DNA from: Planctomycetota bacterium | GTDB lineage: Bacteria; Planctomycetota; Phycisphaerae; UBA1845 | Assembly: GCA_024276605.1 (NCBI GenBank) | Contig: JAJRWX010000009.1 | Coordinates: 62,001-126,000, forward strand | Direction: 5' to 3' | Length of the DNA: 64,000 bases | Shown here: positions 53,126 through 54,934 of the stretch, in pieces | How the letters are laid out: every line of letters starts with the position of its first letter | How positions within the stretch are numbered: the first letter of the stretch is position 1 | Notes under the pieces: model-generated | What the model was told of the DNA's origin: nothing | Seen by the model: the letters and a program-made list of their open reading frames with translations, nothing else | Database searches by the model: none | Translations under genes and position numbers: made by a program

Positions 53126-53202
53126 GAGCTACACTGAATCGGTAGTCTAATTTGTAAAATACGCGTAAAGGCTGATCTTAATTGCACAAAGCCAATCCTT
53201 GT

Positions 53203-53979
53203 TTATGAATTGCCATCGAACACGTCAGCATCGATAGGAATTGGCTTATAAACGTCATCCGCGCATGGTTGAAAACTAGGCGGCCAACTAGCTGTCAGGC
53301 TGCAAAGTAAACGAACTTGAAGTGGTGCGGGAGGAAGATTCACACGAACGACTTTTACTTCGACAGAGTTTGGATGTTCTAAAAAAACTTGCCAAGCGTC
53401 TAACAATAAATACCTTGGCATATACCCAACCATACATCGTCGAGCATCATTATCCGCAGTTCGTAGCGTGATGGCATGACGATCAAATGGATTTTGCATA
53501 TCAGCCATGAGAAGCAATTGTTCTCCAGGTTCGAGAATTCTAACTCGCTCAGTAGCCATATTGGAAAAATATCGCAATCCGTGAACAAAGAAATGAATGC
53601 AATAGCGTCCCTCAGAATCAGGCTCAGGATAGGGAAACATTTCGATCGCATCAGTAACACGTCGTCCACCACTCACAGCCAACATAGAAATAGGATCATG
53701 TTGGTTTTTTGGCAAACCTAAATAGTCCACAAGTTCATCATAATCCGGTCGAGATTCATTCGGTAGACGATTAGCAAAGAGAGGAAAGAGATCATGCGAT
53801 TCATAAATCTGATTTAGATCATTGAAACCAGGCAGACGATCGAAGGACGTATCACGCTTAGCCCTGTTCGCGCCATGCGTGTAAACGAATTGATAGAAGT
53901 TGTCCGGTTTTGATAAGCGTCCTACGGGATACCATGACCGATTACTGGGATCCTGCCATGCAACAAAAAGAGCATTCAT
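53203..53979 (-). CDS. HipS-like N-subdomain plus HIRAN domain protein (putative antitoxin or partner)
   Basis: The 258-residue product has two parts. Residues 1-115 follow the N-terminal subdomain of HipA kinases (called HipS when separate): an initial strand LFVAWQDPS, VGRLSK, YQFVYTHGAN, then DLFPLFANRLPNESRPDY and ISMLAVSGGRRVTDAIEMFP. Residues about 126-200 look like a HIRAN domain (IHFFVHGLRYF, LEPGEQLLLMADMQNPFDRHAITLRT, CMVGYMPRYL); HIRAN folds can bind DNA ends. The start overlaps the stop of the kinase gene (ATGA), so the two are translated together. In HipBST systems HipS is the antitoxin; that this protein acts so is an inference. No helix-turn-helix is visible. Confidence 0.75.
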   Translation of the reverse strand: MNALFVAWQDPSNRSWYPVGRLSKPDNFYQFVYTHGANRAKRDTSFDRLPGFNDLNQIYESHDLFPLFANRLPNESRPDYDELVDYLGLPKNQHDPISMLAVSGGRRVTDAIEMFPYPEPDSEGRYCIHFFVHGLRYFSNMATERVRILEPGEQLLLMADMQNPFDRHAITLRTADNDARRCMVGYMPRYLLLDAWQVFLEHPNSVEVKVVRVNLPPAPLQVRLLCSLTASWPPSFQPCADDVYKPIPIDADVFDGNS

Positions 53980-54926
53980 GATGTTAACCTTTGCATGGAA
54001 ACTAGTCGTTCTCTATTTACCTGAAGAAGCTTATACGCAAACTTTTTTGCTATCGACGACATACGACTCTCCGGTACCCTGCACATAATCCCCATGACCT
54101 CTTCATCGTCAATTCCAGCAATTTTTTCAATCCAGACACTCACCGAATCATGAAAATCACGCTGACACTCTCGAACTACGTCAATAGCGGTCATTGGTTT
54201 TGAATCATCTTTTCTGAGGTATAGTGCGGAGCGTGCTTTCGCAGCATAAGCGCTAACCGATTGTCTTTCATCCGATGTTAATAATCGTCTATTGCGATCA
54301 TTATCTGTCAAATGGCTGCCTAAACTAGATGCATGGTCATACGTAGGAGCTAGAGGAGTCGAGAAACCTTTTCCTGTTTGCCAAGTCAATTTTGAAGCCC
54401 AATTCTCGTGATGCCTATCGGTATTACCAATCCAAGCATCAAAAACCAAATATCCTACAAATAAATCTATCGCGGCTCTAATGCTTGTTGGAGGTGTCCA
54501 ATCGATAGGAAGCTGAGTAACATACTTATTTATTATATCAGACACAGCTTCAAATGTATGCGCTGAAACGCGGTATACCTGTTGCTTGGGATAATCGGGA
54601 ACAAAATCTAGTAACCACTCGTTACCATGCACCAAGAGTTCTTTGATCTCATCCGTTTGTCTTAACAGGTTTTTCGAAACTATACCAAGTTGTCCGTCAT
54701 ATTCAGCGAGGTCATATTCCGCATGAGCTAGGCCCATCAACCTCGCCAATTCGCAAGCTACTTTTTCTGCCCAATCTTCACCCGTATTGGGCCTACCCAA
54801 TTTCCAAAGTAAATAATTGAGTTGTTCGTCACGGTACCAAAATTTTCGTTTGCTACCCATTAACTCATCAGCATCGGCAGCATCCTTTGGGACATGAATG
54901 ATCTTGTACTCGTCGTGCGTCGTCAT
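53976..54926 (-). CDS. HipA-like (HipT/CtkA-type) serine/threonine kinase
   Basis: The 316-residue chain matches the HipA C-terminal kinase core without its N-terminal subdomain. Visible elements are EDWAEKVACELARLMGLAHAEYDLAEYDGQLGIVSKNLL, the catalytic motif FDAWIGNTDRHHENWASKL (Asp170, Asn175) and the DFG-like metal site LAPTYDHASSLG (Asp197). HipA kinases phosphorylate aminoacyl-tRNA synthetases and stop growth; HipT targets TrpRS. The target here is unknown. It begins eight bases after the hutU stop, with TGAGG as ribosome site, and overlaps the HIRAN gene. The two genes appear AT-richer than their neighbours by eye, suggesting acquisition by transfer. No HipB-like regulator gene was seen. 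Confidence 0.82.
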   Translation of the reverse strand: MTTHDEYKIIHVPKDAADADELMGSKRKFWYRDEQLNYLLWKLGRPNTGEDWAEKVACELARLMGLAHAEYDLAEYDGQLGIVSKNLLRQTDEIKELLVHGNEWLLDFVPDYPKQQVYRVSAHTFEAVSDIINKYVTQLPIDWTPPTSIRAAIDLFVGYLVFDAWIGNTDRHHENWASKLTWQTGKGFSTPLAPTYDHASSLGSHLTDNDRNRRLLTSDERQSVSAYAAKARSALYLRKDDSKPMTAIDVVRECQRDFHDSVSVWIEKIAGIDDEEVMGIMCRVPESRMSSIAKKFAYKLLQVNRERLVSMQRLTS

Positions 54927-54934
54927 GGAACGCC

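Follow-up and report, generated by a model that had tools for sequence, protein, structure and literature searches.

A hipIN-type kinase and HIRAN gene pair inserted in a planctomycete genome: a toxin-antitoxin-like module possibly triggered by DNA ends

Two overlapping genes on the minus strand of a planctomycete contig encode a kinase with the core motifs of HipA and a small protein that combines a HipS-like domain with a HIRAN domain. What kind of module do these genes form, how might the second protein act on the first, and what could the HIRAN domain contribute? We analyzed the 64,000-nt stretch of DNA that carries them (the window; source assembly 4.5 Mb, 110 contigs) together with related loci in other genomes. 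The best overall explanation, to which we assign a probability of about 0.62, is a two-gene toxin-antitoxin-like module of the hipIN type, acquired by horizontal transfer, that would act as a DNA-end-triggered growth arrest. The features of the locus are collected in Table 1.

Table 1. Features of the module, with window coordinates
Feature	Coordinates	Strand	Remarks
Kinase gene (HipI-type Ser/Thr; putative toxin)	53976..54926	-	316 aa; core kinase only, without N-subdomain-1
Gly-rich (ATP) loop region E21-W30 (ELMGSKRKFW)	54837..54866	-	E21, G24, K26, K28 and W30 invariant in 40 kinases
Catalytic loop N168-W176 (NTDRHHENW)	54399..54425	-	catalytic Asp170, metal ligand Asn175
Mg2+-binding motif P194-H198 (PTYDH), Asp197	54333..54347	-	D197 and H198 invariant in kinase alignment (40 relatives)
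HipN-type gene (putative antitoxin and sensor)	53203..53979	-	258 aa; HipS-like domain and HIRAN domain
HipS-like domain, residues 1-117	53629..53979	-	fold match 7ab3_B; Couple_hipA E 0.0081
HIRAN domain, residues 122-244	53248..53616	-	Pfam HIRAN and fold match to HLTF HIRAN
ATGA start/stop overlap of both genes (translational coupling)	53976..53979	-	read from sequence
Module stretch missing in two congeneric genomes	53126..54934	.	flank homology comparison with G001 and G002

The kinase and its partner protein

The kinase matched Pfam HipA_C (E 2.2e-08) and PADLOC PDC-M03A (E 1.7e-108), and the HipN-type protein matched PDC-M03B (E 1e-87); NCBIfam returned no match for either protein. Within the catalytic loop, N168, D170, R171, H172, H173, N175 and W176 were invariant in the alignment of 40 relatives. 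In the ATP loop, S25 follows G24, and the family consensus at this place is G-T or G-S; by analogy with HipA and HipT, Ser25 would be a candidate autophosphorylation site.

The AlphaFold model of the kinase (pLDDT 93.9) found its closest solved fold in Helicobacter pylori CtkA (3akk; Z 25.8 over 275 residues, rmsd 2.7, 18% identity), a match well above those to HipT (Z ~18) and HipA (Z ~17), suggesting that CtkA may belong to the short Hip-kinase group. HipA was aligned only from residue ~122-125 on (125-437), so that N-subdomain-1 is absent and the protein consists of the kinase core and lacks the lid.

The partner was modelled with a pLDDT of 88.7. At the sequence level, its residues 18-106 gave a match to Couple_hipA, the HipA N-terminal domain, that stayed below the cut-off (E 0.0081). 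This weak match was settled by the model, because residues 1-117 adopt the fold of E. coli HipS (7ab3_B; Z 10.9, rmsd 2.4 Å, 99/100 residues, 22% identity) and also match the N-terminal domain of HipA (7czo; Z 8.9). Since a profile of the HipS-like domain found no match among PDB sequences, the comparison with Trp65 of E. coli HipS, the residue that inserts to inhibit HipT, was made by eye; no conserved Trp counterpart was evident in the HipN alignment, and the inhibitory contact may therefore differ from that of HipS on HipT.

Residues 127-191 matched Pfam HIRAN (E 2.6e-06). The model of residues 122-244 has the HIRAN fold, matching the bacterial HIRAN-like protein 3k2y (Z 11.9), 6l8n, and the HIRAN domain of human HLTF in DNA-bound structures (Z 8.8-9.1; 4s0n, Z 9.1; 4xzf, Z 8.9). 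Among 46 HipN relatives, N163, G185 and N214 of this domain were invariant and D166 was kept in 43/46; the N-x-x-D stretch aligns with NPYDKNA of HLTF. As judged from alignment and model, the domain is probably DNA-end-binding. Its ligand and its trigger are uncertain, because most bacterial HIRANs reportedly lack the Phe with which HLTF engages duplex DNA (PMC8262856). The same genome also encodes a stand-alone HIRAN-like protein (162 aa; L012 1417-1905, G000:C57) that adjoins a tyrosine-type integrase.

The preliminary description had proposed this architecture: two minus-strand open reading frames joined by an ATGA overlap, a kinase that keeps the HipA catalytic motifs and lacks the N-terminal subdomain, that subdomain displaced to the coupled next gene and joined there to a HIRAN-like domain, and no visible HipB. 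The reading frames and their overlap were borne out by the sequence, the kinase assignment by residue conservation and fold alignment, and the HIRAN fusion by the Pfam and HLTF matches. Structure prediction, set beforehand as the test that could refute the proposal, found the HipS fold at the HipN N-terminus. The absence of HipB held both at the flanks of the module and among the relatives described below.

Insertion, pairing and loss

On the minus strand, hutU (urocanase, ends 54935) is followed by the kinase and the HipN gene, and an FG-GAP/ASPIC-like gene forms the other flank. In both congeners compared (G001 and G002) the flanking genes lie 73-82 bp apart, vs. ~1.8 kb in the window. The module is a clean, recent insertion of ~1.8 kb. 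It is AT-rich relative to its neighbours, with a GC of 0.43 and a GC3 of 0.34-0.37 vs. 0.49-0.58, the latter compared with neighbouring genes only. No integrase or edge repeat accompanies the window module. A 17-nt flanking repeat, considered as a target-site duplication, sits inside the two flanking genes and off the insertion edges, and was taken as chance.

A gap of only 8 bp (window 54927-54934) lies between the hutU stop and the start of the kinase, and in another planctomycete, G031, the kinase likewise starts within a few bases of the lepA stop. This near-zero spacing hints that the module is transcribed along with host genes; no promoter or terminator of its own scored above shuffle expectation.

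A kinase profile search of GTDB genomes yielded 418 relatives, and pairing was analyzed in the best 80 of them, a sample thus selected by the kinase. At these loci a HipN gene adjoined the kinase in 80/80 cases, the kinase was always first, and the spacing was exactly -4 in 51/80; conservation of the pair beyond one genome, the other point on which the preliminary description had staked its proposal, was therefore found. The loci came mostly from cyanobacteria, with others from Proteobacteria, Planctomycetota, Acidobacteria, Spirochaetales, Nitrospira and Myxococcales. Across the 80 loci no third gene recurred in distant taxa, and there is no conserved HipB in the module or its relatives. The window kinase is 41-48% identical to cyanobacterial kinases, all accompanied by HipN, and in sequence terms the window copy is closest to the cyanobacterial type. 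Among 114 genomes of the window's order we found 12 full-length HipN genes; every intact kinase there had an intact HipN, and three HipN genes were without an intact kinase.

Loss of the two genes was asymmetric. An intact HipN lay beside a lost or broken kinase at about 8 loci, and the reverse was seen once, at L036, in a MAG whose contig is covered 1.7x. The kinase had been lost at a Y1-type transposase in one genome (G021/L007), and on plasmid pOSC7112.02 (L116) only its last 39 residues remain at an IS630-like transposase, both transposase types being read from sequence rather than from a family search. Five further kinases carry frameshifts (L016, L019, L041, L061 and L141), some of which may be assembly errors, and in G391 the kinase was replaced. 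Short kinases common to all three Okeania loci (L084, L088 and L097) were not counted as broken. Sampling by the kinase works against finding an excess of kinase loss among the 80 loci. The bias is the pattern expected of a toxin-antitoxin pair and supports that reading indirectly; it is not proof.

The replacement is seen at syntenic lepA-X-hipN loci of one planctomycete genus, where X is the kinase in G031 (L168) and an unrelated 321-aa gene, exactly in its place, in G391 (L158 5539-6504). The lepA gene, hipN and the downstream DNA align at 80-84% identity between the two. The replacement gene is similar in length to the kinase and has an Rx4H motif that recalls those of HEPN nucleases; it gave no match in Pfam, PADLOC, plasmid, phage, viral-contig or phylum-sample searches. 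The pairwise dN/dS of the G391 HipN (0.06-0.13) is within the range of kinase-paired controls and indicates that this HipN remains under purifying selection.

Copies of hipIN adjoin integrases in PM2-like temperate Vibrio phages and in a C. difficile phage. In one 13.9-kb Vibrio phage the pair lies beside the integrase (L114 10953-12646) and is likely phage cargo. The P2-like Escherichia phage 899 encodes a fused protein, HipL, between replication and portal genes (L113 5456-7660). The HipL gene adjoins a 3'-5' exoribonuclease-like gene (Rv2179c-like), which recalls the diDNase genes reported in 2025 beside HipA/HIRAN pairs in Gram-positive islands, where a predicted defence role was noted (PMC11706625).

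The nearest neighbours of the relatives matched 168 PADLOC models, including Argonaute-type, Septu, PARIS AriA and AbiLi, vs. 54 for genes farther away on these contigs, a crude comparison that counts models and not proteins. Enrichment of defence genes near hipIN relatives is only suggestive.

A growth-arrest mechanism and its rivals

In the mechanism that we favour, the HipS-like domain of HipN would cap the kinase, the best-supported of the proposed steps, and HipN probably neutralises the kinase in this way. The HIRAN domain would bind 3' or single-stranded DNA ends that accumulate when a phage replicates, host DNA is broken down or forks are damaged. Binding would loosen the grip of HipN and free the kinase; this is the weakest step, and a role of HIRAN as the trigger through DNA-end sensing, read from alignment and model, is put forward tentatively. 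The freed kinase would phosphorylate a host target and stop growth, resulting in abortive infection or damage-linked dormancy. In known relatives the kinase target is an aminoacyl-tRNA synthetase. If the mechanism is true, restraint of a growth-stopping kinase and the reading of DNA ends would be united in a single small protein, making the module a compact immune switch.

The preliminary description had suggested a possible toxin-antitoxin variant here, anti-phage or linked to DNA damage, and had asked about clustering with defence genes. The antitoxin role gained indirect support from the kinase-loss bias, whereas the variant is not new, being hipIN (PMC8262856) and PDC-M03. An anti-phage role is indirectly supported by the phage and plasmid copies and by the defence-rich neighbourhoods of relatives, and the clustering itself is suggested, crudely, by the latter; the window copy, however, lies between metabolic genes, with no recognisable defence island there. 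On balance we lean slightly towards a function in phage defence.

Several of these observations would also suit a genomic maintenance (addiction) module with no specific role against phage, in which HipN only neutralises, the HIRAN domain is a DNA tether or autoregulator that replaces HipB, and the module persists because loss of HipN is lethal. The toxin-like decay asymmetry, carriage by plasmids and prophages, the isolated location of the window copy and the lack of an HTH partner all speak for it. We nevertheless consider it unlikely, given that the structures matched by the HIRAN fold read DNA ends and are not operator binders, that defence genes are enriched near relatives and that the module is patchy, easily lost or absent (13/114 genomes of the order). 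Plain addiction also leaves unexplained why the fused sensor was kept where the kinase was replaced. That locus admits a different idea, namely that HipN is an interchangeable sensor-regulator, with HIRAN DNA sensing wired to swappable effectors, and not a dedicated HipI antitoxin, which appears improbable.

The HIRAN domains of HLTF and Rad5 act at damaged forks (PMC8262856), and together with the fold matches to 4s0n and 6l8n this could point to a DNA-damage or replication-stress checkpoint, where HIRAN would sense the damaged forks of the host, the kinase would slow growth reversibly and phage defence would be incidental. A patchy, mobile distribution and an insertion in a single species misfit such a housekeeping role, and we regard a checkpoint as quite unlikely. 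It is less likely still that HipN is an activator or substrate adaptor rather than an antitoxin. Active HipA contains N-subdomain-1 as an integral part, and HipN might complete the kinase as that subdomain does in intact HipA; the fusion of kinase, HipS-like and HIRAN domains in the single chain of HipL is in line with this. Against it, HipS inhibits HipT experimentally, blocking the ATP loop of HipT (PMC10627512, PMC9325769), and intact HipN genes stand alone more often than intact kinase genes do.

Comparison with known systems

The window pair almost certainly belongs to the hipIN family. Gerdes, Baerentsen and Brodersen (2021, mBio, PMC8262856) named this bicistron, with HipI as the kinase and HipN as a HipS-like plus HIRAN protein. 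In their proposal, phage DNA ends or replication intermediates are recognised by HIRAN, whereupon the kinase becomes active and the infection is aborted. As in hipIN, the window kinase is short, with the Hip core motifs and no N-subdomain-1, the gene directly downstream encodes the HipS-like and HIRAN domains, and HipB is lacking. The difference is in the host: the HipI clades of that paper come from Actinobacteria, Firmicutes, Proteobacteria and Cyanobacteria, no planctomycete turned up when its text was searched, and the window host is a planctomycete. The 41-48% identity to cyanobacterial kinases with HipN is consistent with a place of the window kinase among the HipI subclades of main clade XI in that paper. 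Among open-licence papers we found no experiment on any hipIN module. Both window proteins, adjacent as in the computational defence candidate PADLOC PDC-M03, match its PDC-M03A and PDC-M03B components with no difference detected; no paper naming PDC-M03 was found among open-licence papers.

HipBA consists of a full-length HipA, including N-subdomain-1, and HipB, a composition that the window module does not have. With HipBST (E. coli O127:H6, Legionella) it shares a lidless kinase whose lid is a separate HipS-fold protein. There, however, the HipS gene lies upstream of HipT, HipB (HTH) is part of the operon and HIRAN is absent; here the partner gene is downstream of the kinase, neither the genes flanking the module nor a recurring third gene in related loci supplies HipB, and HIRAN is fused to the HipS-like domain. 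The window kinase is also closer in sequence to CtkA than to HipT; CtkA, its closest solved fold, was solved as a lone kinase. HipL (e.g., XSF65213.1 of Escherichia phage 899) has the kinase, HipS-like and HIRAN domains in identical order, but on a single polypeptide chain.

HipAD (DS-6, PDC-M66) is likewise a two-gene Hip-kinase module without HipB, but its regulator is a DUF3037 protein, not HipS-HIRAN. For a HipA-like kinase with a DUF3037 partner, phage defence needs kinase activity and loss of the partner is toxic (PMC13092281, PMC12548924). Given phage defence by the related HipAD, hipIN/PDC-M03 is a ready candidate for defence, and its phage-borne copies can be assayed. hipIN was already predicted with the same mechanism, and what is new here is a planctomycete member; the survey adds to the family (i) planctomycete members, (ii) empty-site evidence of mobility, (iii) the loss asymmetry and (iv) phage-borne copies.
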